Source: a virus. From it: a stretch of DNA of 29,943 nucleotides. The notes below the pieces were generated by a model. The model saw only the letters and a list, made by a program, of their open reading frames with translations. It was not told the DNA's origin and did no database searches. Position 1 is the stretch's first letter. Every line of letters starts with the position of its first letter. The position numbers were made by a program, and so were the translations under genes. Shown here piece by piece: positions 157 to 17,855 of the stretch. The stretch lies in the IMG/VR virus record IMGVR_UViG_3300050821_004976, positions 1 to 29,943 of that record; one strand, given 5' to 3'.

Positions 157-216
157 CTTGCACTAAGTTCTAATTTTCCAGTATATTATTGATGTTCCCA
201 CAAGGAGAAAGAAATT

Positions 217-501: not shown

Positions 502-503
502 AT

Positions 504-998: not shown

Positions 999-2610
999 TG
1001 CAAATTACTGGATCGCACAGCGCTCCAAAATGATTGCTTTAACGATCAGAAGTGACGACGAGAAAAGATATCAACGCAAGAAATGTTATGAGGACTGTCT
1101 TCACTTCATTCAGTACTTTACTTTCTTGCATGAGCCTCGGACAATAGATACGCCAGAAAAACCCTTTATTCCATATGACTTCCAAATTAAAGAAATCCAA
1201 TACCTTGTCGAAACGCTCCAAAGATGTGGTGAAAGCGCCCAAGGCTCCAAAGAAAACGTTCTCTACGAAAAGTCCAGAGATATGGGGGTATCATGGTTTA
1301 TCCTCTATGTCTTCTTGTGGTTTCTGCTCTTCCATGGAGCCAACTTTCTTATCGGCTCTAGAAAAGAAGAGGAAGTCGACAAGACAGGTGATATGGATAC
1401 TCCATTTGAAAAACTTAAATTTGCTCTTCGTACCCTCGAACGAACATTCCCCTGGCTACTCCCTCTCGGTTTCGAGTCAAAAAAGCACACTGGACATCTT
1501 ATTATTAGAAATCCCAACGGTGGACAAATTGTCGGAGAATCCGCCAACCCAGAGTTTGGACGGGGCGGCAGAAATCTCGCAGTACTCCTTGACGAGTTTG
1601 CCAAATGGCCCTTTGCCCCAGAATCTTGGCGAGCCTGTTCAATGTCAACCAAAGTTAGAATCCCAGTCTCAACCCCTGGAGAATCCAATACCGACAAGTT
1701 TGCTAGGTTGCGATTCGGTATGGACGGAGACGTCGTCGTCAGGACTCTCCACTGGACAATGCACCCCGAAAAAGCCGCCGATCTCCAAATTGTTAACGGA
1801 AAACCTACAAGTAGTTGGTACAGGGAAGAACAAAGGACGAATAGTCCTGACGACGTAGCCAAAGAAATAGACATATCTTACCTGAACACAATCAAGGGAA
1901 AGATATTCGATACATATGGATTTGGTCATCAGGTGCGCGGTCTTAAACCAATGGGCGGAGATAAGATTATCCGCGCGTGGGATCCTGGCTTGCACTTCTG
2001 CGTTGTCTGGGGACAGGTAGATAGCTATGGCAGATTACTCTTTCTAAAAGAGTTATATATGGAAAATGCACATCTAGACCATATGGCAGAGACAGTATTG
2101 GCTATATCTGAGAAATATTTCCCTGATCATGAATTTGAAGACGTAGGTGATCCTTATGGTGCGTTCAGGCAAGTGTCGGCACAAAGAGAGCCGGAATTTG
2201 GTGTACTTCAAAATGATTACGGTATATCTGTGCAAACCCGTTTCCTGGGGACTATGCCTGCTAAAGATAGAGTTAGAGCCAGAATCCAGATATTGCGCCG
2301 TAAGATGGAGGAGTATATTGGCGTTACCAATACGCCAGCTCTCCTTATCGATCCAGACGAATGTCCCATACTGGATAGGGGCTTTGGTGGTGAATACAAG
2401 TACAAAGCTGATATAAATGGAACGGTATTGCCAATCGTTGACGAAGTCCACCCGATTGAAGATGCGGTGGACGATGCTGGAATGATAGCCTTGTATAAAT
2501 TCCCCTGGGGGATTAAAGGGCTTGTGAAAGATAGACTTCAAGTGAGAGAATCAAACACGAAATGGTCAAGCCATAAAGCTATGGGACTGAGAAGGAATAG
2601 AAATGCCTAA
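922..2610 (+). CDS. terL: Terminase large subunit (ATPase and nuclease)
   Basis: This 562-residue protein is the DNA-packaging motor, which docks on the portal and cuts the concatemer. Visible signs are a Walker-A-like segment EKSRDMGVSW (residues 116-125), the hydrophobic Walker B strand ending in DE (219-225), and an RNase-H-like nuclease part. Candidate metal ligands in the nuclease are D354 (RAWDPG), D410 (DVGDPYG) and the acidic cluster after H510 (E513, D514, D517). A GGAGG ribosome site precedes the ATG at 922. The length is normal for the family. The stop overlaps the portal start by 8 bases. The Walker A is the variant without a classical GKT/GKS, as is common in phage terminases. 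Confidence 0.93.
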   Translation: MDSTTPLIQRPTLVFPESLTPPQPPDANYWIAQRSKMIALTIRSDDEKRYQRKKCYEDCLHFIQYFTFLHEPRTIDTPEKPFIPYDFQIKEIQYLVETLQRCGESAQGSKENVLYEKSRDMGVSWFILYVFLWFLLFHGANFLIGSRKEEEVDKTGDMDTPFEKLKFALRTLERTFPWLLPLGFESKKHTGHLIIRNPNGGQIVGESANPEFGRGGRNLAVLLDEFAKWPFAPESWRACSMSTKVRIPVSTPGESNTDKFARLRFGMDGDVVVRTLHWTMHPEKAADLQIVNGKPTSSWYREEQRTNSPDDVAKEIDISYLNTIKGKIFDTYGFGHQVRGLKPMGGDKIIRAWDPGLHFCVVWGQVDSYGRLLFLKELYMENAHLDHMAETVLAISEKYFPDHEFEDVGDPYGAFRQVSAQREPEFGVLQNDYGISVQTRFLGTMPAKDRVRARIQILRRKMEEYIGVTNTPALLIDPDECPILDRGFGGEYKYKADINGTVLPIVDEVHPIEDAVDDAGMIALYKFPWGIKGLVKDRLQVRESNTKWSSHKAMGLRRNRNA

Positions 2611-4609
2611 GCTCGTTTACGACTATAAAAAGCTAGAGCCATATAACAGCGATTTTATGGTCTCCTTAGCTCAACGTCTTTGGCAGACCAAGATGTATTA
2701 CGAATGGGCAAGACGTCCTTTAATTGAGTATTGGAGAGAATCTGATGACGCCTATCTTTGCTACAGAGAATTACCTCATAACGCAGGTATGCAGTGGACT
2801 GACAAGTCTGACTTTGGCAGCACTGATATTTTCGATGGCGTTAATATGCTTGCTACCAAGCTTAGTCTTGCAATCATGCCTAAAGATGCTTCCTGGCTTA
2901 CTGTTGTCTCACGCCAAAATGATGATCCGAAGATCGTTAATGCTATACAGTCGCAGCAGCTGTGGATGCATACCAGGGCTCAATCTAGACGTATGTGGGC
3001 ACGTCACTTCAAGCAGCTTATGGTGCGTGGAACATCGGCTATGTTTGTGGATTGGGAGGACAGAAGAAAGCGTCGCAAAATATCTACTCCCGAAGGTAGA
3101 CGCAGACTAAAACAACTAATGAAAGCCGGAGGCGCTAAGCAAGAAGCCTTAGACCAAATTGATAAATACTATGTGGAGGATGTTGAATATGTTGGGCCAA
3201 GAGTCAGGGTTATCGATTCTCTGGATCTGTACTTGGATCCTGCTCACGATCTTTCTGTCGATAGGCGTAGTGCGTATATTATCGGGACATATAGACGACT
3301 GGAAGAACTTAAATTAGAGACAGATAGAGAAGACAAGCCGCTCTACGAGAATCTGGATAAACTGCGCCCCTGGACAGCTACTGAAATCTATATGAAAGAT
3401 ATTGAGGGCAGCAATCGCATCCGCAATCTCAATACTATGGGTGTATTCCCACAGAATCAACCTTATCGCAATGAGGGCTATTGCCCTATCTACATCTGCT
3501 ACATGCCTTATTATGAGCATCAAGGGGAGAAGTTTTTTGATTGCTATTTCCACGTAGCAGAGTCTAAAGCAGCACCCTTAGCCCAGATTATCCGCATTGA
3601 ACAGAATCCTAGTCGTGATGGGCATCAATTCATGATTAAAGACACGATGGTGGATTGGTTCGGTAATACAGCTTATGGCATCTCATTAGTTGAGAAGCTG
3701 ATCTCTAAATATAATCAGAAGCAAGTATTAGAAGCTCTTGTTTTAGAAGCAGGCATAACATCAGTATTTCCAGCATATAATATTATGGCTGGTACAGTGA
3801 GAGATGATACTGGTGTCTCATTCTCACCAGGGGATATTAATGAGGTCGCCCAAAATCCTCTGGGACTACAAATCATGGCGCCTGTACCAGCACCTGCTCA
3901 AGGCTTGCAATTAGGCATGGAATCAGTACGCTGGTGGGGTGAAAACATTCAATCTGGCTTTGGTGAATGGGGCGCAGTATTAGATAATCCTACTCGTACA
4001 ATATCATCTAGAGAAACAGCCACAGCAGCCAATATCAAAGCCACTACCGGCACAATGGCCACAGATGAATTAGTAGAGAAATTCTCTCCAAGTCTTCAAG
4101 AATTTGCACAGCTTTGCTTTGATTTATCCAGGCAAGAAATGGAACCAGATAACGGCAAAGTATCTTTCCCTGAAATGACTGGTGTTGGTGGTGCTAAAGC
4201 AGCAGAAATTAGTTGGAATGATTTTAATCAACCACGTGACATCATTGTAAGTGGCTTGCACGGTCAGTTTAATAAGTCTGAACAAATCCAGACGATGACA
4301 GAATTTGTAAAAGGGTTGGCGCAGATAGCAAACATTCTTCCAAACGCAGCCGGTTATGCCACTTCTGTTGTTGAGCAACTGGCTAACAAGCTTGGTATTG
4401 TGGTTCCTGATGTTGTGAAAGCAGATCCAAATCAAGTGGCGGCAATGAATCCGCAAGTACAACAAGCTGTCATGCAACAGATGGCACAAGCTCACCCGGA
4501 CATTGCTCAACTTGTTGGACAGATGCTTCAAGCGAAGCAGGGACAAACGAAGGGTGGCAATAATGGCAGACCTCCGATGCCTGGTGCTGGCGCTCAGGCG
4601 TTAGGCTAA
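2603..4609 (+). CDS. Portal protein (podovirus head-tail connector type)
   Basis: This 668-residue protein is the dodecameric ring at the capsid vertex through which DNA enters and to which the tail binds. The N-terminal region has the pattern of T7/P22-like connector proteins: a YYEWARRPLIEYWRESDDAY helix, then DIFDGVNMLATKLSLAIMPK near residues 75-94 followed by SWLTV. The central part is alpha/beta. The C-terminus (about 600-668) is Gln/Ala-rich with Gly and Pro, probably flexible. The start overlaps the terminase by 8 bases, the usual arrangement of packaging genes. The last 140 bases are overlapped by a gene on the other strand. Confidence 0.9.
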   Translation: MPKLVYDYKKLEPYNSDFMVSLAQRLWQTKMYYEWARRPLIEYWRESDDAYLCYRELPHNAGMQWTDKSDFGSTDIFDGVNMLATKLSLAIMPKDASWLTVVSRQNDDPKIVNAIQSQQLWMHTRAQSRRMWARHFKQLMVRGTSAMFVDWEDRRKRRKISTPEGRRRLKQLMKAGGAKQEALDQIDKYYVEDVEYVGPRVRVIDSLDLYLDPAHDLSVDRRSAYIIGTYRRLEELKLETDREDKPLYENLDKLRPWTATEIYMKDIEGSNRIRNLNTMGVFPQNQPYRNEGYCPIYICYMPYYEHQGEKFFDCYFHVAESKAAPLAQIIRIEQNPSRDGHQFMIKDTMVDWFGNTAYGISLVEKLISKYNQKQVLEALVLEAGITSVFPAYNIMAGTVRDDTGVSFSPGDINEVAQNPLGLQIMAPVPAPAQGLQLGMESVRWWGENIQSGFGEWGAVLDNPTRTISSRETATAANIKATTGTMATDELVEKFSPSLQEFAQLCFDLSRQEMEPDNGKVSFPEMTGVGGAKAAEISWNDFNQPRDIIVSGLHGQFNKSEQIQTMTEFVKGLAQIANILPNAAGYATSVVEQLANKLGIVVPDVVKADPNQVAAMNPQVQQAVMQQMAQAHPDIAQLVGQMLQAKQGQTKGGNNGRPPMPGAGAQALG

Positions 4610-4781
4610 GTGCCTTCTCATACAAATTCTTTATCACTATCTCTTTCTCTTTGATTATATTTTCTGCCCATATAACCTCTTGTAAGAGCTTAGCTATGAG
4701 CCTGATATAGAAATGATTTGGTGATAGGGTGATATCCGTATTAGCCCAGTCATCTATTTGCTGGAGTAATGATTCATTCAT
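4470..4781 (-). CDS. Small unknown protein, last gene of the XRE operon
   Basis: This 103-residue gene begins at an ATG preceded by AGGAG on the minus strand. Residues 1-60 are helical and amphipathic (LLQQIDDWAN, then IKEKEIVIKNLYEKAL). The last 45 or so residues are encoded antisense to the 3' end of the portal gene and are less protein-like, with Cys and His clusters. It follows the 112-residue gene by 10 bases, so it belongs to the leftward operon. Function unknown. The true stop could be affected by a frameshift or sequence error. Confidence 0.6.
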   Translation of the reverse strand: MNESLLQQIDDWANTDITLSPNHFYIRLIAKLLQEVIWAENIIKEKEIVIKNLYEKALSLTPERQHQASEVCHYCHPSFVPASLEASVQQVEQCPGELVPSVA

Positions 4782-4790
4782 TTGACTCTC

Positions 4791-5129
4791 CTAACCTAGT
4801 TTCATAGAGTTTGTTTCTAACGTGAGCAATCTTTCTTCTATCGTTTTCATTTTGCTTGGAACATTTCTTACTTCGCTAATAATAGGATCTTGCCATTTTT
4901 GATTCTCTGTAACAAGCGATAAATTACCTTTCAATTCATTCACGCTTTTGATAAGCGAATCATTGGAATAAGTAAGCGCTTGCATCCGGTGATGAAATTG
5001 CAAAGCATTCGTTAAAAGTCCAAGAGATTCAAGAATGAAAAATTCTTTCTCTTTAGTTGGAGTGACTATCTTCTTGACAGATTGTAGTTTTTGTGGTTTC
5101 TTTACGGATGTTTTTTTTCTTGGTTTCAT
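4791..5129 (-). CDS. Basic coiled-coil protein, unknown function
   Basis: This 112-residue protein has a very basic N-terminus (residues 1-28, mostly K, T, V, P) followed by two helical stretches (about 30-70 and 88-112, ending RLLTLETNSMKLG) with heptad-like Leu/Ile spacing. A DNA- or RNA-binding tail on a coiled coil is a reasonable guess only. The ATG overlaps the stop of the 255-residue gene by 4 bases (ATGA), which indicates translational coupling in the same leftward operon. Confidence 0.7.
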   Translation of the reverse strand: MKPRKKTSVKKPQKLQSVKKIVTPTKEKEFFILESLGLLTNALQFHHRMQALTYSNDSLIKSVNELKGNLSLVTENQKWQDPIISEVRNVPSKMKTIEERLLTLETNSMKLG

Positions 5130-5893
5130 AATTTCCTCAGCAGTTCTGCTATTTTGTCTTTTAGTTCAGCATTTGGATCTTGTGCGGATTCTTCTATAAG
5201 GGCATGAATAAAGTTGGTTAATGCTTGGATTAAATGTTGTGCTTCACTTCCAGTAGTCAATCTAGCTCTAGAGATTTTCTGATCTAAAGGAATTGGGGGA
5301 TCTTCAAACGGCTTGCCGTATTCATCTTCCAAATTGTCAATTGCTTTCTGTTGAAATGGAAATGGCTTTAAAGGAACTTCTGGCGCAGTACCGATTTGCA
5401 AATAACTGGCAACAAATTCTTTTTTATCTTCTGCAAGGGGTGGATATTCAATCTTTGCATAAGTGTTTTTTAGTGCATTAACAGCATTAATCAATGCTCT
5501 ATCTTTATCATCACCATAAACAATCATTGGAGTCTTTGAGATTTCATTCCAAGGCAGCACATTATTTCCATCATTATCAACAATGATGCAACTAGCTTTC
5601 TTGCCATAGTTAGTGAATACTGGTTTAAGTCTTTGCTTATTCAAGAATGACATGCAGTCAAAGACTTGTTTCTCGGCTATCTGTGCTAATTCTTTTGGTT
5701 GCTCTTGTGCCATTGGTTTTGGTTTCTCTTCTTCTTTCTCTCGCAAAGCCAATGATTGTGCTTGTCCAAGAGTAGGGCTAGTTTGTTTAGCAGGCGACTC
5801 AATAAGAGTGCCGGTGATATCGGCAACACTATTTTCTTGCTCTTCTGTTGTTATTGTCACGTTGTCTTGCTTGACGGTTTTTTTTCTTGCCAT
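5126..5893 (-). CDS. Unknown 255-residue protein with disordered N-terminus
   Basis: Residues 1-75 are charged and of low complexity (Lys, Glu, Gln, Pro), probably disordered. Residues 76-170 look like a compact alpha/beta domain (RLKPVFTNYGKKASCIIVD, then TPMIVYGDDKDRALINAVNAL). Residues 205-255 are helical. A GGGA-type ribosome site lies just upstream of the start. The first 65 bases overlap the end of the XRE regulator. No family is recognised. As the largest member of the operon it is the best candidate effector of the island, but that is inference. Confidence 0.72.
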   Translation of the reverse strand: MARKKTVKQDNVTITTEEQENSVADITGTLIESPAKQTSPTLGQAQSLALREKEEEKPKPMAQEQPKELAQIAEKQVFDCMSFLNKQRLKPVFTNYGKKASCIIVDNDGNNVLPWNEISKTPMIVYGDDKDRALINAVNALKNTYAKIEYPPLAEDKKEFVASYLQIGTAPEVPLKPFPFQQKAIDNLEDEYGKPFEDPPIPLDQKISRARLTTGSEAQHLIQALTNFIHALIEESAQDPNAELKDKIAELLRKL

Positions 5894-6137
5894 TTTCCCA
5901 AATTCCTATTGCTCTTAATCCGATACCCCGTAATTCATCTTGTTGGCTTACTAAAATCTTTAAAAGGTGACATAAATAAGCCCATCTAAAAGTATGAATA
6001 AGGATGGATGGCGATGCTTTGCTATTCTCTATCCTACTTAAAGCAGAATAATTCATACTTAGGCATTTTCCGGCATACCTTAATGAAATGCCTTCCCGTA
6101 CTCTTATTCTTCTGATTACTTGCCCAAATGTAGCCAT
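5829..6137 (-). CDS. XRE-type helix-turn-helix regulator
   Basis: Residues 4-45 show a Cro/CI-like HTH: GQVIRRIRVREGISLR, then a second helix, then NYSALSRIENSKASPS, where the SRIE(N) recognition helix is typical of XRE repressors. The 102-residue length fits a small DNA-binding protein without a protease or large dimerisation domain. The C-terminal 30 residues are basic and overlap the next gene. The gene is divergent from the rightward gene at 6189. No ribosome site is visible, and the start codon lies inside an inverted repeat (6126-6148), which suggests autoregulation or leaderless translation. Confidence 0.82.
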   Translation of the reverse strand: MATFGQVIRRIRVREGISLRYAGKCLSMNYSALSRIENSKASPSILIHTFRWAYLCHLLKILVSQQDELRGIGLRAIGIWENGKKKNRQARQRDNNNRRARK

Positions 6138-6148
6138 ATGCTACAATT
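6126..6148. promoter_or_regulatory. Inverted repeat over the XRE start codon (candidate operator)
   Basis: TGTAGC and GCTACA form a perfect 6-bp inverted repeat around a 5-base centre (6129-6145). One more outer pair beyond a mismatch extends it to 8 of 9 matches. The regulator's ATG (6137-6135, minus) is in the centre. Binding here would block the regulator's own transcription or translation start. The link to the XRE protein is inferred from position. Confidence 0.5.
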
Positions 6149-6159
6149 GAATCATAAGT

Positions 6160-6183
6160 GTTGAGAATTTGTCAACTAGAGGA
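6160..6183 (+). promoter_or_regulatory. Leader element, copy A of the TTGTCAACTA repeat
   Basis: This leader contains TTGTCAACTAGA (6169-6180), which is exactly complementary to 7319-7330 in the candidate small RNA. It runs into the ribosome site AGAGGA (6178-6183) of the gene at 6189. A local inverted repeat GTTGA/TCAAC (6160-6164 and 6172-6176) overlaps it. On the minus strand the same bases give TTGACA, a possible -35 box for the XRE gene. Confidence 0.5.
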
Positions 6184-6188
6184 CTGTT

Positions 6189-6605
6189 ATGCCAAGAAAG
6201 AAAAAGCAAGATCCATGGGACATGAGGGAGTTTGAAACTCCTATTAATGTCGATATTCGCACTGGCGCACCTATTGAAAGAGACAAGCCTAAAGAGGCTG
6301 ATAAAAAAGATATCGTTGAACGACAGCGCCAGAAGATGCTTTATAAGACATTCATTGAGCATCCTGCTTATCCTGAGTTTAGAAAGCAGGCTTTTGCCTC
6401 TTGTTATTGTCCACCCCCAGCAACTATTAATAGTCTGATAACCTGGTTATTCGCTAATGCCATGAGAACGGGAATATCTGCTCTGTTTGATGCAGTTGAA
6501 CAAACAGCCAAATCCCCACTACCAGAGGAGCAGCCAGTAGTGAATAAATATCGTCCATCATTCTTTAGCGATAATACCGGACTTGCAGAAAAGGATATTG
6601 ATTAA
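6189..6605 (+). CDS. Unknown protein, first gene of rightward island operon
   Basis: This 138-residue protein has a basic N-terminus (MPRKKKQDPWD), a charged helical region (about 35-65), a hydrophobic helix around residues 80-100 (TINSLITWLFANAM), and an acidic C-terminus. An AGAGGA ribosome site precedes the ATG. The gene overlaps the next one by one base (TAATG). It diverges from the XRE gene, so its expression is probably under that regulator. Function unknown. Confidence 0.72.
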   Translation: MPRKKKQDPWDMREFETPINVDIRTGAPIERDKPKEADKKDIVERQRQKMLYKTFIEHPAYPEFRKQAFASCYCPPPATINSLITWLFANAMRTGISALFDAVEQTAKSPLPEEQPVVNKYRPSFFSDNTGLAEKDID

Positions 6606-6910
6606 TGAATAATGATAAACATAATCCCGAACCTTGGAAAGACTGGACAGAAGATGAAGATATTTGGATAGATTTAGTTGATGGCGAGAATAATCACGTA
6701 GAACTAATCTCTCCGCGAAACAGGCCGCGTATCATAGCCTGCATTAACGCTTGTGCTGGAATACCCACAGAAGATTTAGAAGCAGTAATAGACTGTGGAA
6801 AGTACAGAAGAGTTCAGTTTACTCCTCTGAAATATAAAGTTACCGACATTCACGAATGGATGGTAAAAAAAGTCTTTAATACGGTAATGCCCGAATCAGA
6901 GAATCCCTAG
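6605..6910 (+). CDS. Small acidic phage protein with NACAGI motif
   Basis: This 101-residue acidic protein contains RIIACINACAGIPTEDLE (about residues 42-59), a short motif that recurs in many small uncharacterised phage proteins. Its start overlaps the previous stop by one base, so the two are co-translated. Its end overlaps the leftward gene at 7255 by 15 bases. The function of this motif family is not known to me. Confidence 0.75.
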   Translation: MNNDKHNPEPWKDWTEDEDIWIDLVDGENNHVELISPRNRPRIIACINACAGIPTEDLEAVIDCGKYRRVQFTPLKYKVTDIHEWMVKKVFNTVMPESENP

Positions 6911-7255
6911 TAAATCCATCAATTTTTCATCTACAGATAGAAGAGATTTTTTGCCCCAGTATTCCTTGGATATGATTTTAGCCAAATGATAGAAATACTT
7001 TCTGGCTAATTGTAGAAACTCTTTGACTGGCCATTCAATAGCTGTCATATCTTCCCACCAAGCTATAGTTTCTTCCTTGGTTGTCATATAAGACAGGACT
7101 TCTAGATTTTCTTGGACTGTGCCACAAGACTCGCTCCAGTCTCTGCGATTCTTCTTCTCTTGTATGCAGATCCCACAATAATCCCCCTTAAAAGGATTAA
7201 CCGGGGGCTTGCTTTCAGCCTTAGACGGACGCCATGTTATATATTTCTCTTCCAT
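6896..7255 (-). CDS. Unknown leftward protein of the island
   Basis: This 119-residue protein starts at an ATG with GAGG a few bases upstream on the minus strand. It contains a Cys pair (CGIC near residues 27-30) and a further Cys at WSESCG, then Trp-rich helices (TIAWWEDMTAIEWPVKEFL). A single zinc site is possible. It converges on the rightward pair 6189-6910. Copy C of the TTGTCAACTA repeat faces it from 65 bases upstream. Function unknown. Confidence 0.65.
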   Translation of the reverse strand: MEEKYITWRPSKAESKPPVNPFKGDYCGICIQEKKNRRDWSESCGTVQENLEVLSYMTTKEETIAWWEDMTAIEWPVKEFLQLARKYFYHLAKIISKEYWGKKSLLSVDEKLMDLLGIL

Positions 7256-7268
7256 ATATCCTCAAGCA

Positions 7269-7296
7269 TTGACAGATGATTCATTACAGGTATGAT
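7269..7296 (+). promoter_or_regulatory. Sigma-70-type promoter for a candidate small RNA
   Basis: A perfect -35 box TTGACA (7269-7274) and a -10 box TATGAT (7291-7296, five of six to consensus) are separated by 16 bases. Transcription would start near 7303, with no open frame before the terminator at 7370-7399. This is the best-matching housekeeping promoter I saw in the window. Confidence 0.65.
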
Positions 7297-7318
7297 ACAC
7301 GCAGGTTGGCAGTGTATT

Positions 7319-7335
7319 TCTAGTTGACAATTCGC
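7319..7335 (-). repeat. Copy C of the TTGTCAACTA repeat (inverted)
   Basis: The minus strand reads GCGAATTGTCAACTAGA. It shares 15 bases with copy B (7476-7490) and 12 with copy A (6169-6180). As DNA it points toward the leftward gene at 7255. As RNA it is the antisense of copies A and B. Confidence 0.6.
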
Positions 7336-7369
7336 ACTTTTCGACGCTGAAATCTTGCAAGCCTCATTA

Positions 7370-7399
7370 AGCCCTTTATCTTCGGATAGAGGGCTTTTT
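7370..7399 (+). terminator. Rho-independent terminator with UUCG tetraloop
   Basis: An 11-pair stem (AGCCCTTTATC with GATAGAGGGCT, one G-U pair) is closed by C(UUCG)G and followed by TTTT. This is a strong intrinsic terminator on the plus strand. The nearest upstream plus-strand gene ends at 6910, so the short RNA from the 7269 promoter is its most likely client. Confidence 0.85.
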
Positions 7400-7466
7400 G
7401 TATTGGATTAAATCTGGCTCACTTATCCAAAAGTAGACTAGAAGGCATGCTCCCAAACTCCTTATT

Positions 7467-7496
7467 GTTGAGATAGCGAATTGTCAACTATAGGGA
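7467..7496 (+). promoter_or_regulatory. Leader element, copy B, before the scaffold gene
   Basis: It holds GCGAATTGTCAACTA (7476-7490) directly followed by the ribosome site AGGGA (7492-7496). A local inverted repeat GTTGA/TCAAC (7467-7471 and 7484-7488) could form a small hairpin. The string ACTATAGGGA resembles the core of T7-type polymerase promoters, so a phage promoter is an alternative. No phage polymerase gene is in this window. Confidence 0.45.
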
Positions 7497-7502
7497 ATAT
7501 AC

Positions 7503-8267
7503 ATGCCAGCCGAAGTTTTAGACGGAAATGCAACCACAGTTGCAGCGCCTCAAGTCAATGCCCAAGAATTTGGTCAAGCCTTTGCTAGAGAGTTTGCAAG
7601 TGCCTTTAAGCAAAGCACTACCAAAGAAGAAAAGATAGATGAAATCAACGAAGTCGTTGCCGCTTTAAAAGCTGGTGGACGCTCGGACGAAGAAATTCAA
7701 GGTTTCATTACCACAGCTTTAGGTGTTGAAAAGAAGAATAGCCGCATCCTTAAAGAGAAGATCGACGAGACCAAAGGTCAATTCCTTCAATACCAAAACG
7801 AGAAAGAGCTAGCTTCTGCCATCCGGCGCATAACTAAAAGTTATAGCAAAGACGATGATTTGATATCCGAAGTCTCCGGCTCTATTAGAGATTTTGTCCG
7901 CAGTGAATTTATCAATAGTTCCAATGCTGAGATTGCTGTAGCAAGAAGCAAGTTTTATGCAAGCGGTGATCTTGATGAAGACATTATTGAAGATTTGATT
8001 GCCAAAAAAGTTGAGCGTATTCACGAAAAGAGTTCCGGCAAAAAAGGTACTGCCGCTCCTTCTGTGAAACCTTCTGATATGGCTTCTCGTCCTCCGCAAA
8101 ATGGCGAGGATCGCAATGCCGTGTCTTCTAGAGATGACATGAATGAGATTGAGCGCTCTGTTTATGATGCTTATAAAAGCACAATGCGTCATACGCTGTC
8201 GCCCGAAGACTTAGAAAAACATGCAGTGATTGCGGCTAATCAAGCCACAAAAGGTATTAAACGATAA
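7503..8267 (+). CDS. Probable capsid scaffolding protein
   Basis: This 254-residue protein is hydrophilic, highly charged and almost wholly helical. Its N-terminus is Ala/Gln-rich, its middle charged (about 45-170), a Ser/Pro/Gly linker spans about 175-205, and a basic helical C-terminus ends in KGIKR. This composition and its place two genes before the major capsid protein match phage scaffolds, which template procapsid assembly and use a basic C-terminus to bind coat. No protease motif is seen. The call rests on position and composition, not on a conserved motif. AGGGA precedes the ATG. Confidence 0.72.
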   Translation: MPAEVLDGNATTVAAPQVNAQEFGQAFAREFASAFKQSTTKEEKIDEINEVVAALKAGGRSDEEIQGFITTALGVEKKNSRILKEKIDETKGQFLQYQNEKELASAIRRITKSYSKDDDLISEVSGSIRDFVRSEFINSSNAEIAVARSKFYASGDLDEDIIEDLIAKKVERIHEKSSGKKGTAAPSVKPSDMASRPPQNGEDRNAVSSRDDMNEIERSVYDAYKSTMRHTLSPEDLEKHAVIAANQATKGIKR

Positions 8268-8280
8268 GGAGTAAAGCAAG

Positions 8281-9051
8281 ATGACCGCAGCAACTACAGG
8301 TTTAGGCTTTCAACCATATAGCGAAACTATTTCAACATCGAATATTTTGCAGCGCTATATGCTTACTGCAAGCACGCAGTTTTATGAAGGCGATGCTCTT
8401 ATCCTGACTGATGGGATTGCTGGACAGACAGCCAGTCAAACCGCACTACCTACGCATATCTTTCAGGTAATGATTACTCCGTATACTCTATTGCGTCCAG
8501 CAGCTACTAATCTGACCACAACTCTTGGTGAAAAGGGTTTGATGGTGCCTGTAACTAGCGGTGTAGCTGGTGGGCTGCCTGCTTTGACATGGCTTACTCC
8601 CTTGGCTGCTAATTCTGGTATTCCGCCATTTAACGGCACAGCTTGTAATGCAAACAGTTCAACAACCAGCGTAGTCTTTACGGGCGCTGGCTCTACAAAC
8701 GACTTTGCCACAGGTTCTGTCTATATTCCAAGCCTTGGTCAGCAAAGGACAGTCACTGCTGATGTGGTTTCTGGCGGTGTGCATACATTTACTGTGACAC
8801 CTGCTTTCTCTCGCGCTCCAACGACTGGAGACACTCTGATTGCTGTTCCATTTAGCGCTGGTTCTATTGGCGTCAAGCTAGATGCCACAAATAGCTATCA
8901 GGGTATCAGTGCTGCTGTTGCTGATAAGACTGGTGGCCACGTTGATATTGTCGCTGTTGTTCTTGGTGCTATCCAAGAAGGTGGCGATCTGGGCTACACG
9001 CTAAATAGATTCGCTGGCGGCATCCCCTACGCAGTCGTATATTTCGCATAA
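8281..9051 (+). CDS. Putative head decoration protein
   Basis: This 256-residue protein is rich in Gly, Thr, Ala and beta-forming residues, with no charged helices. It lies between the scaffold and capsid genes, the usual place of decoration or capsid-stabilising proteins. An AAGGAG site precedes the ATG. Its whole length aligns without gaps to the last 256 residues of the 752-residue protein at 17856-20114 (about 173 identical by hand count, strongest at residues 131-200). The copy carrying Ig-like domains suggests this module anchors to the virion surface. Decoration is an inference from order and composition. Confidence 0.7.
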   Translation: MTAATTGLGFQPYSETISTSNILQRYMLTASTQFYEGDALILTDGIAGQTASQTALPTHIFQVMITPYTLLRPAATNLTTTLGEKGLMVPVTSGVAGGLPALTWLTPLAANSGIPPFNGTACNANSSTTSVVFTGAGSTNDFATGSVYIPSLGQQRTVTADVVSGGVHTFTVTPAFSRAPTTGDTLIAVPFSAGSIGVKLDATNSYQGISAAVADKTGGHVDIVAVVLGAIQEGGDLGYTLNRFAGGIPYAVVYFA

Positions 9052-9067
9052 TAAAGGAGTTTAGAAA

Positions 9068-9991
9068 ATGGCTCAAACACTTACCCGCGACCAGTTTATC
9101 GAGAATATGGAGCCTACGCTCCATCAAGAGTTCTCGGCGGGCTTTAATGCTGGCATGGCATGGAAGAGCGTCTGGGTCGAAGAAAAGTCCGAGAAAAGAC
9201 GTGAAGAAACTGTTGAATTTGTCACTCCGGACGTCGTGGTAGAAACACCGGAAGGTGGGCCATATGTCAGATTGCAAGTACGCAAGGCATATAATGCTTC
9301 TGTCGTACATGCCAAATTCACAGGTGAAGTACGTGTATCTCATGAGTTCATAGAAGATAACTTCTATCAACAAATCATGAAAGACATCTACGGTCTTGGC
9401 GATGCCATGGCCCGTAAGATGGACAGAGATGCTTGCTCTAACTTCTACAATGGCTTTGGTGCTGTCGTAACTCCTGATGGTGCATCTTTATTCGGTACTC
9501 ATACTTTGAAGTACAGCACAAGCACTTATGCCAACTTTGCTACCGGTGCCCCACTTAATTCAGATAACTTGAACGCTGGTATCACTAATCTTTTGAAGAC
9601 ACTAGATGAAAATGGCTCCGTGTCGCCTTTTGGTAAGCAGAAGATTCAATTGATTGTACCGCCTGACAGTGTTCGTATTGCTACTCAACTATGTATTTCG
9701 CCTTATGAGCCTGATACTTCTAATCGCGCAGTTAACGTCTTCAATAACCCCAAAGGTTTCGAGATTGAAGTAGTTACTTTGCCGCTATTGGCAGAAAATC
9801 CCAATTCATGGGCAGCCAGTTTCTGGATGCTGAGAGATGCTACCAGAGCTAATAATATTTTCTTCTCTCGCGAAGAGCCAAAGACTGAAGTAGTCAAAGA
9901 TCCACATTCTCCTGATGTGTTGTACCAAGTGTTGTTGCGGTACAGCTTCCTGATACCCACATGGCGTGGTCTATATGGCGCTCACAACTAA
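9068..9991 (+). CDS. Major capsid protein (HK97-fold type, Mu gpT-like pattern)
   Basis: This 307-residue protein has an N-terminal charged region with TRDQFIENMEP, a beta segment YVRLQVRKAYNASVVHAKF (about 66-84), a spine-helix-like stretch DAMARKMDRDACSNFYNGF (112-130), and the motif DGASLFGTHTL (137-147), which resembles the FSTAH-like signature in Mu-type coat proteins. The C-terminal half holds IQLIVPPDSVRIA and WMLRDATRA, as expected of the A-domain. The length is typical of a mature coat without delta domain. AAGGAG precedes the start. Its place after scaffold and decoration genes supports the call. Confidence 0.85.
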   Translation: MAQTLTRDQFIENMEPTLHQEFSAGFNAGMAWKSVWVEEKSEKRREETVEFVTPDVVVETPEGGPYVRLQVRKAYNASVVHAKFTGEVRVSHEFIEDNFYQQIMKDIYGLGDAMARKMDRDACSNFYNGFGAVVTPDGASLFGTHTLKYSTSTYANFATGAPLNSDNLNAGITNLLKTLDENGSVSPFGKQKIQLIVPPDSVRIATQLCISPYEPDTSNRAVNVFNNPKGFEIEVVTLPLLAENPNSWAASFWMLRDATRANNIFFSREEPKTEVVKDPHSPDVLYQVLLRYSFLIPTWRGLYGAHN

Positions 9992-10002
9992 GGAGTTAGA
10001 CA

Positions 10003-10419
10003 ATGGCTGCTGCAACACCTTCTTATCCAAGTACCTGGCTCCCAGTTATTCTCTCGCTGCCGCTCATGGGAGCCGGGGCTAATGGCATCCTTGCCATATC
10101 CTCAACTTATAACTTTGTTATAGCAACAATACCTCCTGCCATAATCACCTCTATAGAGGCTAATGCTATTACTCCACCGACCGTTGCCAGCAGTGTTACT
10201 GTCCAATTTTTCAAAAGTGGCACAACTAATGCCATAACCGGGGTCTACGATCTAAATAGCTTAACTGCTGGTGTTGGTGCTTCCATACCAATAACTGGCA
10301 ACCAGACTTTATCGTCTACTGATTTTATAGTGTGCCAGGTAGTAACCGGTGGGGCTTTAAATAGCGCGGCTGGATTGAATGTTACTGTTGGAACTAGAAA
10401 CGCAGCACAAAGGTATTAA
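10003..10419 (+). CDS. Small beta-rich structural protein
   Basis: This 138-residue protein is composed mainly of Ala, Thr, Ser, Val, Ile and Gly with almost no charge, suggesting a beta sandwich. AAGGAG precedes the ATG. It lies between the capsid and adaptor genes and is probably a virion component such as a second decoration or head-completion protein. No motif identifies it. Its stop codon lies inside the hairpin that covers the next gene's ribosome site. Confidence 0.7.
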   Translation: MAAATPSYPSTWLPVILSLPLMGAGANGILAISSTYNFVIATIPPAIITSIEANAITPPTVASSVTVQFFKSGTTNAITGVYDLNSLTAGVGASIPITGNQTLSSTDFIVCQVVTGGALNSAAGLNVTVGTRNAAQRY

Positions 10420-10433
10420 GGAGGAATCTCCTT
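10418..10433 (+). promoter_or_regulatory. Hairpin hiding the adaptor ribosome site
   Basis: AAGGAG (10418-10423) pairs perfectly with CTCCTT (10428-10433) across a GAAT loop, and the ATG follows at once (10434). The stem contains the ribosome site of the next gene and the last two bases of the stop codon (10417-10419) of the previous gene. A ribosome ending the upstream gene would melt it. Translational coupling is the likely purpose. Confidence 0.6.
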
Positions 10434-11264
10434 ATGCCTACTACCAACGTCAATTCGACATGGTTGCAGACTACCAACAAAATCTTGGAATTACGTGGGC
10501 AGTTACAGATAACCAGCTCTAATAATTTCAACAATCCAACTCAATTGCTAACCAGAGTGCAGAGCTTAGCGCGCGCTTTTGTAGATATGTGCGACAGGAT
10601 GCTGAATCTCAGGCGCAATAACAGAGACACGCTGCAAGAGTTTCAAATAATCACTCAAGTTGGCGTACCAACCAACATTAACAGCTACATGTATCAGTTA
10701 GATCCAAGCATCCATGTAGAGAATATACGCTATCTAAGTTTCTTCAATGTAACCCCACAAGGTACAGGCAGCATTGTTGTGGCACAGCCTTTATACAATA
10801 TTGAGTATAGGGAATTTAGACGACTCTATCCTGACTTCTCACAAATAGCGATAGCTCCACCAGATAATTGGATCATCTTGCCTAAGACGGCAGTGCAGCC
10901 AGGCCCAGGCTTGTATGCAGATACAATCATGTTTTACCCTATCCCTGACCAAGTCTATAAGATTAATTACCAAGCAAAGACTGATGCCACGCCATTAACG
11001 AAAGACACTGACCAGATACTCTGGGCACCCGCCTACGAGCATATTCTCTGGCACTGGGCAGGGATGTACCTAGAAGATGCTTTAGGGGAAGGCAAAGGGC
11101 AGCTAATGAGCGCTTATGCAGAGAAGGCGTTGAGTGAATATCATTTTTGGGTTGATAGAGGGCCAGAAGAAGAAGCTCATTGCATCAGGACTGGACTTGC
11201 TATTACCGGATTACTTAAAGGCAGAAGGGTTGGTTACTGGGGCGGGCCTTATAATGGTACATAG
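10434..11264 (+). CDS. Head-tail adaptor / tail tubular protein A-like
   Basis: This 276-residue protein is placed after the capsid genes and before the large tail protein, as with T7 gp11 or P22 gp4-type adaptors that bind the portal and start the short tail. Residues 35-65 are helical (VQSLARAFVDMCDRML). A beta region follows with NIEYREFRRLYPDF (about 123-136), which is typical in phage adaptor and tail tubular A proteins. Later comes YEHILWHWAGMYLEDAL (about 200-216). The ribosome site AAGGAGG is sequestered in a hairpin. Family assignment is from pattern and gene order. Confidence 0.72.
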   Translation: MPTTNVNSTWLQTTNKILELRGQLQITSSNNFNNPTQLLTRVQSLARAFVDMCDRMLNLRRNNRDTLQEFQIITQVGVPTNINSYMYQLDPSIHVENIRYLSFFNVTPQGTGSIVVAQPLYNIEYREFRRLYPDFSQIAIAPPDNWIILPKTAVQPGPGLYADTIMFYPIPDQVYKINYQAKTDATPLTKDTDQILWAPAYEHILWHWAGMYLEDALGEGKGQLMSAYAEKALSEYHFWVDRGPEEEAHCIRTGLAITGLLKGRRVGYWGGPYNGT

Positions 11265-11275
11265 GGAGAAATACA

Positions 11276-11773
11276 ATGCCAAAAAAACCAAACACTAAGG
11301 AAGAATTATTAGCACTCTTATATAGAGAAAGTATAGTCGATGAAAAAACAGAGTGTCGAGTATGGACGGGACATCGAGTAGGCAAAGCTGACGGTAAAGG
11401 ATATGGAGGTATAGTCTTATCTGAGCCTGATAAAAGAACGAAATGGCGTGTTCATCGATTAATGTGGGAAATCCATCATGGGGATATTCCAGAAGGATTA
11501 TTAGTAAGACATTTTTGCCACAATCGCCTATGTATCAATATTGATCATTTGGGAATTGGTACTCACAAAGATAATTATGATGATGCACGTAAAGCAGGCA
11601 GACATACTCATGGAGAATTAGCTTCTTGGCTTACCGAAGAACAAGTCAAAGAAATCAAGCGCCTTGGTGCAGAAGGTGTCCCACAAAGAAAGATAGCCAA
11701 GCAATTTGGTATTGCTAGCAAAAGCACTGTCGGACGCATCTTGCGCGGACAAGCTTGGAGCCATGTAACTTAA
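11276..11773 (+). CDS. HNH homing endonuclease with C-terminal HTH
   Basis: This 165-residue protein has the HNH core: VHRLMWEIHHG (59-69) then RHFCHNRLCINIDHLGIGTHKDN (78-100), where the His/Cys/Asn/His residues form the metal and active site. Residues 119-165 carry an HTH that ends WSHVT and probably binds DNA. Such genes are selfish elements that cut copies of the genome lacking them. It sits between two tail genes, has its own GGGAGA site, and its TAA is immediately followed by the next gene's ATG. It is a paralogue of the gene at 24197-24625. Confidence 0.9.
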   Translation: MPKKPNTKEELLALLYRESIVDEKTECRVWTGHRVGKADGKGYGGIVLSEPDKRTKWRVHRLMWEIHHGDIPEGLLVRHFCHNRLCINIDHLGIGTHKDNYDDARKAGRHTHGELASWLTEEQVKEIKRLGAEGVPQRKIAKQFGIASKSTVGRILRGQAWSHVT

Positions 11774-14359
11774 ATGCCAAGACAATCAGCAGTACCACTT
11801 ACCCAGTCTCAAATATCTCCCTTAATGCAAGAGGGGAAAGATATTCAATGGGGGCAGCAATTACTTACAGATGGCATGGCGAGCTATCCGGCGGATTATC
11901 TCCGGGCGCAGACTGTAGCCAAACTTCTAAGCAATCTTATGCAGTCTCGTCGACAAGGTGTATGGACAAGTCGAGACAATGGGATAACCAAATATTTAAG
12001 CACTCAATTTAATAGTGGTGCTGTGATGAATAGCTTTGGGCAGTTTATAGACACTCAAGGTATTCAGCAACTTATTTTGCAAGTAGGCAGTCATCTTACT
12101 TGGTTGAATCTGGCAACTACAATAGCGACTAATTTAAGTACAAGTCTGCCAACTGATCACTCAAATAACAGCGATCCACTTTATCCATTATTTTGTTGTA
12201 TTAGAGAATTTCAGACCATAGTTGCTGGAACGACTCTTTATTCTGTAATGACTCATCCGCAGAACTTAGCTGCCAGCACTATTAATGCTTCTGGCACATT
12301 GGCGACATTCCAATTGAATCCTGCAAACACTGCTGTTGCTGGCACGTGGGGATATATTGGGGCACCTATGGTAGGGACTGGTATTGGTATTCCTTATGGC
12401 TTCCCTGCTTTGTGTGAGCCATTTTTAAATAGCATGGCATATGCAGGCTTCCCGATTAGCTTCCAGACTAATCCGCCTTCTTTAGGCACTGTTAGTCTTA
12501 CTGCTCAGCCTTTGAGTGTCTATGACATTCTAATAACTAACTATGGGCTTTATAACACAGTGACGCAAAGCAGCACGTTGCTTGCCACTGATGGGGTGCG
12601 GCTCCAGGTGCCTGCTATTTGTGGCAGACCTACAGCACTAAAGACTATCCAATTAAACAATCAGAGCAATTCACAAGCATTATTAGTCGGATGTGAGAAA
12701 GCTGTTTGTTTAATCCAAGGCACAGGGGCTAATGATTTTGGACTTATCATTCTTACCACTGAATTTGGCATACCAAGCAATAGAGCCTTATTGCAAATCC
12801 AGAATGATATTGTCTTCTTGGCTAATGATGGCATTAGGACATTCTCGTCATTAGTTATTAATGCCAATCTACTTACTTCTGCTATTAGCTATTGCCTACA
12901 AGATTATGTCCAACAATGGGATCAGACATGGCTTAATCAGGCTTTTGCAGTCAGGCATAGAGTGACTAAGGATATTCAATTCTGGATGCCTGAATTAAAT
13001 GAAGATGGCAGCAGCACAGGGCAATTTTCTGTTTCTAATCAAGGTGCTGTGTTTAATGGCACTAATGCTTATTTGAAACATGCTGATAATGCCAGTCTTG
13101 AAACTGGCAATATTTCTTTTACTTGGGCTGGATGGCTTAATTTGGCTTCTGTTAGTGGCTCTCCAATGATGGCGACCAAATGGGATGGAAGTAAAACGGG
13201 CGATTATGCCTTGTATTATTCCAACATCAATAATGCAATGGAATTTTTGGTGATGGACGGTGTGCATGTTTCTAATGGTGTTTTAGCATCAAACTTTGGG
13301 CCATTCAGTACCAATACTTGGTATTTCGTTGTTGCCTGGTTTGATGCTGGGACTGGATTATGCAATATTTCAGTTAATAACGGCGCAGTAAATAGTTTTA
13401 ATCCCGGATATACTCCGGCTTCTTCTACTCAAGAATTTGACATGGGTGCAACTACAGGTAGTAGTCCTGCTGATTTTCTTGATGGCGTCTTGCAGTGCAT
13501 TGGTTTCTGGAAGCGCACATTAACAACAGCAGAAATCACACAGCTTTATAATAGTGGCACTCCATTGCTTTATGCCCAATTGCCTGCTGCAATGCAATCT
13601 GAATCAGCTACTACCTTTATCAGCTACTGGAATTTGAATGAAACTTCCGGCACAAGAAATGATAGCCGCAGCACTGGCAATAATTTAACGGATGCCAACA
13701 GCAATGTCGGTACAAGTACTGGCGTTACTGCATACGTGCCTGCATTAGTGAATCTGGCTTTTGTCTTTAATTACGGTGATTCTAGTCCTAATGTCCAAGC
13801 TATCCCGCAATTGAAGTTCGCTCCTTCCATCAGACAGCAATTGACACAAGCGGCAGCCATTGAAGTGCAAGACCCGCATAACAACTTTGCTTGGACAATG
13901 TTGGGGGGCGGATATAACGGCTATCTCTATACACATTATTCCGGCAATTTGAATGACGGTATGTCATTGCCTTGGACTGCTACCTTCCCGCTTTTCAACA
14001 CTGGCAATGATATGGTGGGGATGACTTCAAACAAGATAAATATCATATGCGAAGGGATAGGGCAGAATATATATGCCAATGCTATCTTCCTGGAGATGAT
14101 GGCAAATGGCACTATCGTGCCGCAAAATGCTCAGCAAGGCCCATTCAATCTAATTTCAGGGGCTAATCTGGAGACAATTTTAGGGCAATGGATATTGGGA
14201 CAATCGGCTTTCCCTGGGACTTTCGTTCAGCTTCTAGAATACACACCGACGGGTGAGGCGAGATTTTTCGAGTTGCAATTACAAGGCTATAGCGGCAATA
14301 ATGTAATAGATTTGATTGGCGCTGATTTTGATTGTTCGACAGGTTCGACGAGAAGATAA
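11774..14359 (+). CDS. Large tail protein (tubular B-like) with inserted LamG domain
   Basis: This 861-residue protein is a candidate tail nozzle protein. Residues 1-415 carry repeated beta patterns of a propeller-like tail protein, such as VPAICGRPTALKTIQLNN, LLQIQNDIVFLANDGIRTF and VTKDIQFWMPELNEDG. Residues about 417-658 form a laminin-G/concanavalin-type domain: AVFNGTNAYLKHADNASLE, FTWAGWLNL, then DGVLQCIGFWKRTLTTAEI with LYNSG, a classic LamG ending. The propeller resumes at LAFVFNYGDSSPN (659). The start abuts the HNH stop codon with no good ribosome site of its own apart from GGAG 13 bases upstream. Confidence 0.8.
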   Translation: MPRQSAVPLTQSQISPLMQEGKDIQWGQQLLTDGMASYPADYLRAQTVAKLLSNLMQSRRQGVWTSRDNGITKYLSTQFNSGAVMNSFGQFIDTQGIQQLILQVGSHLTWLNLATTIATNLSTSLPTDHSNNSDPLYPLFCCIREFQTIVAGTTLYSVMTHPQNLAASTINASGTLATFQLNPANTAVAGTWGYIGAPMVGTGIGIPYGFPALCEPFLNSMAYAGFPISFQTNPPSLGTVSLTAQPLSVYDILITNYGLYNTVTQSSTLLATDGVRLQVPAICGRPTALKTIQLNNQSNSQALLVGCEKAVCLIQGTGANDFGLIILTTEFGIPSNRALLQIQNDIVFLANDGIRTFSSLVINANLLTSAISYCLQDYVQQWDQTWLNQAFAVRHRVTKDIQFWMPELNEDGSSTGQFSVSNQGAVFNGTNAYLKHADNASLETGNISFTWAGWLNLASVSGSPMMATKWDGSKTGDYALYYSNINNAMEFLVMDGVHVSNGVLASNFGPFSTNTWYFVVAWFDAGTGLCNISVNNGAVNSFNPGYTPASSTQEFDMGATTGSSPADFLDGVLQCIGFWKRTLTTAEITQLYNSGTPLLYAQLPAAMQSESATTFISYWNLNETSGTRNDSRSTGNNLTDANSNVGTSTGVTAYVPALVNLAFVFNYGDSSPNVQAIPQLKFAPSIRQQLTQAAAIEVQDPHNNFAWTMLGGGYNGYLYTHYSGNLNDGMSLPWTATFPLFNTGNDMVGMTSNKINIICEGIGQNIYANAIFLEMMANGTIVPQNAQQGPFNLISGANLETILGQWILGQSAFPGTFVQLLEYTPTGEARFFELQLQGYSGNNVIDLIGADFDCSTGSTRR

Positions 14360-15237
14360 TGCAAAAGAAATTCCCAGCACTTATATTCAGTCTCTTGCTA
14401 ATCATTGGTTTAGCGCAGCCCCTGTTGGGACAGCCATTTATAGCTCTTCCTGCCTTCCAAAACAAGACCGATGGAACCATTGTCTACGCAGCGGATTGGA
14501 ACAACACCATAGGTGGACTCTATGTCTACATAACTAATAGTCTCTTGCCTCAGTTAAATGCTCTTACTCAAAAGGGCGATTTATATGGCTATACTGGGAG
14601 TTCTATAAGCAGATTGCCTGTCGGCAGCAATGGACAAGTTTTAACTGCTAATGCCGCAGCTCCATTAGGAATAAATTGGGCGGCGGGTATTGGTCTACCT
14701 ATTACCACCAAAGGCGACATTGTGGTGGGCAATGGTAGTGGTGTTGCAGCAAGACTTGGTGTTGGTACCGATGGCAAAGTTTTAACAGCAGACTCTACTC
14801 AAACTAATGGGCTTGCTTATGAATCTGTAGTCAATCTCAATCCGCCGAGTGGAGCAATTATTATTTGGTATCAGACATATGGAGGCACTCCACCGGTTGG
14901 TTGGCACCTATGTGATGGCACTAATGGCACGCCTAATCTTATCGGCATGGTTGTGATGGGCGCTCAATATACTGGTGGCTCTGCAACAGCTAATGCTAGT
15001 GGTTATGGCAATTCATTTGAAGGGACTGTTTATAGTACTCCCACGATTTCTCATAACCATAATTATTCAGGAACAAGCAGCAATCCTAGCTCAGCAGTGA
15101 CGGCACAAGCTGGGACAACAGTGCCTGTTGGTGCAGCATCGTCTAGTATGACGGTGAATTATTCGGGGGGCACTACTAGCGCCAATGTGAGTACGCAGCC
15201 TGCAAGTCTTGGCTTGCAATATATAATGAAACTTTAG
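14359..15237 (+). CDS. Tail fibre with signal peptide, repeats and tail-collar domain
   Basis: The ATG at 14359 overlaps the previous stop by one base and gives 292 residues. An in-frame ATG at 14332 would place 9 hydrophilic residues before the hydrophobic stretch and is less likely. Residues 1-24 form a Sec-like signal (charged QKK, then a Leu/Ile-rich core, then LLG-QP). Two related repeats at about 72-108 and 118-154 share GD, RLPVGSNGQVLTA or RLGVGTDGKVLTA. Residues 163-205 match a phage tail-collar domain (GAIIIWYQTYGGTPPVGWHL, then DGTNGTPNLIGMVVMGA). The C-terminus is Ser/Gly/Asn-rich with HNHNYSG. It probably binds the host surface. Confidence 0.82.
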   Translation: MQKKFPALIFSLLLIIGLAQPLLGQPFIALPAFQNKTDGTIVYAADWNNTIGGLYVYITNSLLPQLNALTQKGDLYGYTGSSISRLPVGSNGQVLTANAAAPLGINWAAGIGLPITTKGDIVVGNGSGVAARLGVGTDGKVLTADSTQTNGLAYESVVNLNPPSGAIIIWYQTYGGTPPVGWHLCDGTNGTPNLIGMVVMGAQYTGGSATANASGYGNSFEGTVYSTPTISHNHNYSGTSSNPSSAVTAQAGTTVPVGAASSSMTVNYSGGTTSANVSTQPASLGLQYIMKL

Positions 15238-15250
15238 AGGAGATATAAAA

Positions 15251-15658
15251 ATGTCAGGTGGATTTACAAGAACGGCGGATAAAGCGGCCAATGGGCTACG
15301 CAGGAAAATAACAGTGGCGCTTGGCACAACCAAAGCTACTGTCGCTAATACACCTCCGGCTAATGCTCATGGACGATCTGGATCACAATGTTTGCTTACG
15401 GTAGCTTTAGATATAAGTGCTTCTGATACTTCCATTACTTGCCAATTCTGGAGTGAGACAGCCAAGCAATGGTTTTTGGCTGGTACTGGTCAAGTTGGTG
15501 GAGGGCAAATAGTAGACTTAGCGCCTGGCGGAGTAACCACATTTGTTCTACCAGAACAAACCTTGTATTTCTTATATGGCAGCGCCACAGTAGCTGCTAA
15601 TCTAATATGGACAGACGGTGAAGATGTACCAGCGATACCACAAACAGGGACTCAATAA
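15251..15658 (+). CDS. Small beta-rich virion protein, unknown
   Basis: This 135-residue protein is preceded by GAGGAG. It is rich in Ala, Thr, Val and Gly, with beta-pattern stretches such as SITCQFWSETAKQWFLAG and VTTFVLPEQTLYFLYG. It probably folds as a small beta sandwich and may be a fibre chaperone, cap or decoration. It sits between the collar-domain fibre and the lysine-rich mini-genes in the late operon. No family is recognised. Confidence 0.7.
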   Translation: MSGGFTRTADKAANGLRRKITVALGTTKATVANTPPANAHGRSGSQCLLTVALDISASDTSITCQFWSETAKQWFLAGTGQVGGGQIVDLAPGGVTTFVLPEQTLYFLYGSATVAANLIWTDGEDVPAIPQTGTQ

Positions 15659-15672
15659 CAAGGAGAAAAACA

Positions 15673-15756
15673 ATGAAGCACAGCGCGAAGAAAGAAGAAA
15701 AGAAAGAAGAAAAGAAAGAGAAGAAAAAGATGAAGAAGAAAAAGGAGAAAAAGTAG
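15673..15756 (+). CDS. 27-residue Lys/Glu-only-like peptide
   Basis: An AAGGAG site lies just before an ATG that opens a 27-codon frame ending in TAG. Sixteen residues are Lys and six are Glu, an extreme composition encoded in a purine-only stretch of about 70 bases. The overlapping frame that includes the same purine run lacks such a well-placed ribosome site. It could be a DNA-condensing peptide packed in the head, or a low-complexity spacer. Its reality as protein needs mass-spectrometry proof. Confidence 0.5.
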   Translation: MKHSAKKEEKKEEKKEKKKMKKKKEKK

Positions 15757-15758
15757 TA

Positions 15759-17844: not shown

Positions 17845-17855
17845 GGAGATTTATT

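Follow-up and report, generated by a model that had tools for sequence, protein, structure and literature searches.

A decoration-like protein encoded beside a phage capsid gene recurs as the C-terminal module of an adhesin-like protein: a possible mixed coat

The phage head protein Hoc carries Ig domains at its N terminus and a capsid anchor at its C terminus, and phages Muldoon and PG7 each encode two versions of it (PMC10385173). Phage phi29 bears a head fibre, gp8.5, with a beta-tulip base on the capsid and a projecting fibre (PMC7602432); its N-terminal part resembles the TW1 protein by HHpred (PMC11476376), and TW1 gp56 itself has been catalogued as a trimer of the beta-tulip type, placed at quasi-threefold axes (PMC7602432). 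The capsid of Sf14 combines gp33 and gp20, that is, a lattice of plain beta-tulip proteins with a decoration protein that bears an Ig domain (PMC11821841). In the SPP1 tail tube, gp17.1 and FN3-bearing gp17.1* are present at ~3:1 by frameshifting, about a quarter of the subunits carrying FN3 (PMC6316719). SHP of phage 21 and gpD of lambda form chimeric oligomers at only 49% identity (PMC7602432).

Here we describe a 29.9-kb virus record (the window, all 29,943 nucleotides of IMG/VR record IMGVR_UViG_3300050821_004976) in which a plain 256-residue protein, P1, encoded next to the capsid gene, recurs as the C-terminal module, P2C, of a 752-residue adhesin-like protein, P2. The pair resembles the Hoc pairs of Muldoon and PG7, in which one phage has two versions with different appendages, and the original prediction overstated the case in calling such an arrangement unusual, since phages whose two Hoc proteins differ in domain load have been published (PMC10385173). 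In its order of parts P2 resembles Hoc, whose capsid-binding module lies C-terminally behind Ig-like domains; in P2 the FN3 domain is supported, the Ig-like repeats are weak and capsid binding is putative. Hoc is a monomer at hexamer centres that forms no cementing lattice, and we found no sequence relation between it and the P1 module; both Muldoon Hoc proteins bear appendages, whereas P1 is plain. The phi29 head fibre matches our model of P2 in its capsid-bound beta-tulip base and projecting fibre (PMC7602432), but gp8.5 is a single protein with an N-terminal anchor and without a plain paralogue. In SPP1, as in the coat proposed below, a single kind of structural subunit comes both plain (gp17.1) and with FN3 (gp17.1*); the SPP1 proteins differ in belonging to the tail tube, in carrying FN3 C-terminally and in arising by programmed frameshift of one gene, where the window has two. 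The Sf14 proteins have different folds, whereas here the plain protein and the anchor are paralogues. Related cases are known (paired Hoc proteins, phi29 gp8.5, SPP1 gp17.1*); in the open literature we found no description of a plain cement protein and an adhesin anchor that are paralogues. The genes of the window are as follows.

922-2610, large terminase, first in the gene order
2603-4609, portal-like gene, directly after the large terminase gene
7503-8267, plus strand, scaffold-like protein adjoining P1 upstream (by position, with a weak match to a PHROG of virion structural annotation, E=0.005)
8281-9051, plus strand, P1, the plain 256-aa copy, decoration-like (capsid-stabilising) by its slot and TW1 gp56 match, with identity to P2
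9068-9991, plus strand, HK97-type major capsid protein, 307 aa (Pfam Phage_capsid_4, E=1.3e-11; PHROG major head protein)
10003-10419, plus strand, plain protein of 138 aa whose slot follows the capsid gene (profile match, E=1.7e-5)
10434-11264, SU10-type adaptor
11276-11773, HNH endonuclease
11774-14359, large nozzle-like protein, so named from its position
14332-15237, collar fibre
16078-17844, fibre-like protein of 588 aa, directly before P2
17856-20114, plus strand, P2, adhesin-like fusion of 752 aa with the second module copy at its C-terminal end
21361-21954, probable lysin by position, with small proteins between P2 and it

Clear Shine-Dalgarno sequences accompany P1, the capsid gene, the gene at 10003-10419 and P2 (AAGGAG for P2). 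Two minus-strand open reading frames, 4791-6137 and 6896-7255, lie between the portal and scaffold genes, while the rest of the head cluster is on the plus strand. The nozzle-like tail protein contains, at 13055-13537 (residues 428-588), an inserted Laminin_G_3 domain of the concanavalin-like lectin kind (E=7.8e-13), so that adhesion-type domains occur in a second structural protein of the phage.

Both open reading frames on which the original prediction was built are present, at 8281-9051 and 17856-20114, and its gap-free, end-to-end alignment was reproduced: residues 1-256 of P1 match residues 497-752 of P2 with 173/256 identities (67.6%). A search of the record returned exactly two copies of the module, the second at E=6.5e-107, and a chance likeness is excluded. 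The shared parts are:

19344-20111, plus strand, P2C, second copy of the P1 module, P2 residues 497-752 (173/256 identity; clade with P1)
8620-8856, plus strand, compact beta subdomain of P1, residues 114-192 (AlphaFold pLDDT; dN 0.15)
19683-19919, plus strand, the compact subdomain in P2C, equivalent to P1 114-192 (87% identity to P1; confident in the P2 model too)

At the DNA level the copies are far less alike. Their DNA identity, 61.7%, is lower than their protein identity; the longest identical run is 14 nt; and of 172 identical amino acids that have degenerate codons, 62 use the same codon, where independent draws on the window's codon usage would give 58.9. Randomised codon choice, together with DNA identity below protein identity, indicates an old duplication. 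Nonsynonymous divergence is 0.30 overall, with dS saturated or nearly so, and both copies have been kept by selection on the protein; that the copy runs end to end despite saturated synonymous sites indicates that the entire module is needed in both places. The two genes are also too diverged in DNA for easy recombination. We discarded a recent duplication or an assembly artefact, given the saturated synonymous sites and the lack of any shared DNA run above 14 nt. Divergence is uneven along the module: dN is 0.43 for residues 1-113, 0.15 for 114-192 and 0.29 for 193-256, with identities of 57%, 87% and 62%, so that residues 114-192 are the most conserved part.

We compared the window with six related phages, four of them in Obscuribacterales genomes. 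Two IMG/VR phages (L007, L008), along with L054, which is part of a metagenome-assembled genome from the Obscuribacterales, were reached through their terminase and capsid genes, and a profile search of 53 Obscuribacterales genomes gave three further relatives; in all, the head cassette occurs in 4 of these 53 species genomes (L054, L061, L063 and L064, in genomes G004, G097, G117 and G121). This Obscuribacterales phage family with its head cassette is apparently undescribed. All six relatives have a P1 homologue, of 207-245 aa, and a P1-type gene lies directly before the capsid gene in 7/7 genomes, window included; an open reading frame equivalent to the scaffold-like 7503-8267 precedes the P1 homologue in relatives. 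Each relative has one convincing copy of the module (6/6, several records being fragments), which makes the duplication look specific to the window's lineage. The phylogeny called for in the original prediction supports a genuine duplication, grouping P1 with P2C as a clade (97/100 support); both contain stretches, at residues ~92-112 and near the C terminus, that are reduced or absent in the relatives. For the same reasons, acquisition of P2C from a distant phage is not favoured. Beyond this family, P1 had no match in 50,697 phage records, direct searches did not find the module in GenBank phages, and neither P1 by itself nor profiles of two or three rows detected it among viral and genome contigs.

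The relatives offer several further observations. P1 is nearer to L054 (47%) than to L007 (33%), whereas the capsid protein is nearer to L007 (53%) than to L054 (40%); such a conflict suggests that genes were exchanged or that rates differed. The contig carrying L054 is 279 kb long, and the 20 kb past the tail side encode a type II secretion protein, a glycosyltransferase and a TPR protein, so that this phage is probably integrated. Beside it, L066:9713-10408 (minus strand) matches the capsid profile a second time, weakly (E=4e-5), which may be a chance hit or a remnant. Sec-like signal peptides, judged by eye and unexpected on virion proteins, start several fibre, nozzle-like and cement-slot proteins (e.g. 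MKKIIPFILFLIVLILLPARAQ, MHKRLLNALLVALLVATPAFA): in the window at 14359-15237 and 16078-17844, and in relatives at L007:16437-17564, L054:10942-11715, 14181-14996 and 15436-18564, and L061:18077-19786. Judging from the relatives alone, the host of the virus is probably an uncultured, non-photosynthetic relative of cyanobacteria (Obscuribacterales). A search for a CRISPR-spacer link from bases 1-18000 of the window to a host gave a 33-bp, 91% match in genome G055, with no repeat array in the stretch examined.

With these relatives as outgroups, the first part of the module stands out. Within residues 1-113, losses of shared residues in P2C and P1 number 13:4, 12:3 and 11:3 with outgroups L054, L007 and L008, and 4:4 with L061, the counts across outgroups not being independent. 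Outside residues 1-113 there is no asymmetry. Branch lengths in the tree (P2C 0.37, P1 0.13) agree with the loss counts. The fused copy has thus changed faster than the plain copy, only within its first ~113 residues.

The module itself is best compared with TW1 gp56, a lambda gpD-type beta-tulip decoration protein. A five-sequence profile searched against 177,635 PDB sequences gave as its best match 5wk1_X, a capsid-stabilising protein with the sequence of TW1 gp56, at a suggestive E=0.0068. The main stretch aligns profile positions 169-214 with chain residues 73-119, and a second, non-significant stretch in the same order aligns 21-53 with 18-50. The match scores 18.9 bits with this profile, where the best of 1949 shuffles reaches 9.5 bits; with a broader eight-sequence profile it drops to 10.2 bits, equalled by 1 of 1961 shuffles, and hhalign of the module against gp56 gives P=7e-5. 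The likeness extends to the genome: gp56, annotated "head decoration", directly precedes the capsid gene gp57 (a virion structural protein in the TW1 record), and the TW1 terminase is related to that of the window. Against this, gp56 has 148 aa and P1 256 aa, P1 containing a large extra stretch that includes subdomain 114-192, and the similarity is borderline. We know of no adhesin-bearing paralogue in TW1.

Other searches were less informative. Neither P1 nor P2C belongs to a Pfam or PHROG family, and no Hoc chain is among the PDB matches of the module. AlphaFold predicts the compact beta subdomain of P1 with pLDDT mostly 64-90 across ~114-192 and gives values <50 elsewhere. Foldseek found no significant match for the P1 model in the PDB or BFVD; the non-significant matches of the compact subdomain include tail fibre and pectate-lyase-type proteins as well as T5 Dit. 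In distant capsid relatives, 6 of the 7 proteins in the slot before the capsid gene belong to phrog_37556 (whose members include HTVC027P gp58, DSL-LC04 and CRP-901), and hhalign of the module against these slot proteins aligned N-termini only (P=0.024, probability 2%), so homology is not established. The decoration-like identity originally proposed for P1 is supported by its slot in all seven genomes and by the TW1 match; sequence and gene order together are moderate evidence that P1 is a decoration protein of the capsid-stabilising kind, enlarged by a long additional stretch.

Ahead of the module, P2 was originally described as carrying a beta-sandwich, two Ig-like repeats and an FN3 domain. 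The two that drew matches are:

18528-19049, plus strand, two possible Ig-like repeats, P2 residues ~225-398 (weak)
19056-19313, plus strand, fibronectin type III domain, P2 residues 401-486 (Pfam fn3; PDB 3mpc)

The FN3 domain is confirmed, by Pfam fn3 at E=0.0036 (below its cut-off) and by the Fn3-like PDB entry 3mpc at E=5.9e-5. The Ig-like repeats are more doubtful: antibody light chains in the PDB match at E=0.006, and the repeat-to-repeat score is reached by 7 of 1000 shuffles. For the beta-sandwich, residues 1-215 found no database support, and AlphaFold is without confidence there; save for the compact subdomain, the P2 model is too poor to interpret. The adhesin part of P2 had no match in the 53 Obscuribacterales genomes and, against GenBank phages, only a weak one in the FN3 region. 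By analogy with FN3 and Ig domains on other phages, the N-terminal part of P2 may act as an adhesin.

A comparable layout occurs on the other side of the capsid gene. The window protein at 10003-10419 matches a profile of the C-terminal module of proteins from L008, L054, L061 and L064 (E=1.7e-5 in a ten-sequence set, synteny agreeing). The gene that follows the capsid gene in L008, L054 and L061 encodes a fibre-like N-terminal extension and then this homologous ~134-aa module, whereas the module stands alone in the window (138 aa) and in L064 (158 aa, two genes after the capsid gene). The L054 extension carries a BppL_N repeat that is also present in the long fibre of L054. The order, appendage ahead of module, is that of P2, and thus recurs at two genes of this phage family, the ~134-aa module being presumably capsid-located. 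Appendages ahead of head-slot modules at two genes make it more likely that P2C is a head anchor.

We consider a mixed coat plausible, with a probability of about one half: P1 would be a decoration protein that was duplicated, and P2C the anchor of an adhesin-like protein on the same capsid. In this scheme the P1 gene would have been duplicated in this lineage, the copy becoming the C-terminal anchor of a protein bearing an FN3 domain and probably Ig-like domains. Plain P1 would fill most capsid positions, with P2 as a minority, either in mixed trimers with P1 or in separate trimers. P2 would thus dock on the capsid and co-assemble with P1, and its N-terminal domains would project from the head and help the particle to grip polymers of the cell surface or matrix ahead of receptor binding by the tail. 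The scheme is favoured by the position of the P1 homologues directly before the capsid gene and the gp56 match, by the P2-like layout of the head-slot proteins of L008, L054 and L061, and by the precedents of Hoc (Ig first, anchor last) and of chimeric SHP/gpD oligomers. Weighing against it are the location of the P2 gene in the fibre/lysis region, outside the head cluster; the faster divergence of P2C residues 1-~113; and, for the module, a TW1 match that weakens with the broader profile and the lack of a confident fold outside 114-191. Identical docking of P2C cannot be assumed, given its gene's position and this faster divergence. The first domain of gp56 reportedly clamps capsomers and the second makes the trimer. 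If the TW1 homology holds, P2C may have retained the portion that builds the trimer while its capsomer clamp relaxed, a combination suited to mixed trimers with P1. A less likely extension of the scheme is a mosaic display evolved in nature, in which plain and adhesin-bearing cement paralogues would form mixed trimers on a single head; their ratio would be set by the expression of two genes whose DNA has diverged too far for recombination, in a family that would repeatedly place fibre-like parts ahead of head-slot proteins.

The same evidence allows other arrangements. P2 could be a tail-associated fibre or spike, off the capsid, in which the recruited module at the C terminus serves for trimerisation, attachment or receptor binding. 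Its gene, between the 588-aa fibre-like gene and the lysis genes, fits this, as do the faster evolution of residues 1-113 in P2C than in P1 and the non-significant Foldseek matches to tail fibre and pectate-lyase-type proteins and to T5 Dit. Fibres, though, usually keep their virion anchor at the N terminus, whereas in P2 the shared module is C-terminal and the rest is varied. All 256 residues are kept in both copies with zero indels, which exceeds what a spare trimerisation motif needs. Nor is gene position decisive for location: the Ig-like domain of T5 pb10 led to its initial assignment to the tail (PMC7602432). On balance we regard a tail location as somewhat unlikely.

Alternatively, P2 might sit on the head at another site or as its own homotrimer, for instance at vertices or neck, so that the coat would not be a random mix at one site. 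The Ig-bearing decoration protein of Sf14, found only on pentamer-proximal hexamers (PMC11821841), sets a precedent, and the rate difference in the first 113 residues, with the remainder symmetric, fits this reading; a new site is unnecessary, however, at 68% identity without indels, and we hold this to be improbable. It is more doubtful still that P1 is some other head protein, such as an assembly factor, a protease partner or an internal protein, whose module P2 uses differently. That P1 has neither a Pfam or PHROG family nor a confident fold, and that its TW1 similarity is borderline, would allow this, but the gene slot and the PDB profile match agree independently. The lambda gpD gene occupies the same slot, before the capsid gene. 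Phage GP4 has its cement protein as gp1 and its capsid protein as gp2 (PMC9698820).

If the mixed coat is true, the locus would be a natural counterpart of laboratory gpD display: a cement gene would have been duplicated, one copy would anchor adhesion domains, and a partial coat would be obtained with no ribosomal frameshift involved. The shift of a phage from capsid stabilising to capsid-based adhesion could be put to the test here, and the phage family enlarges the set of structural genes from viruses of the Obscuribacterales, bacteria that have hardly been studied.
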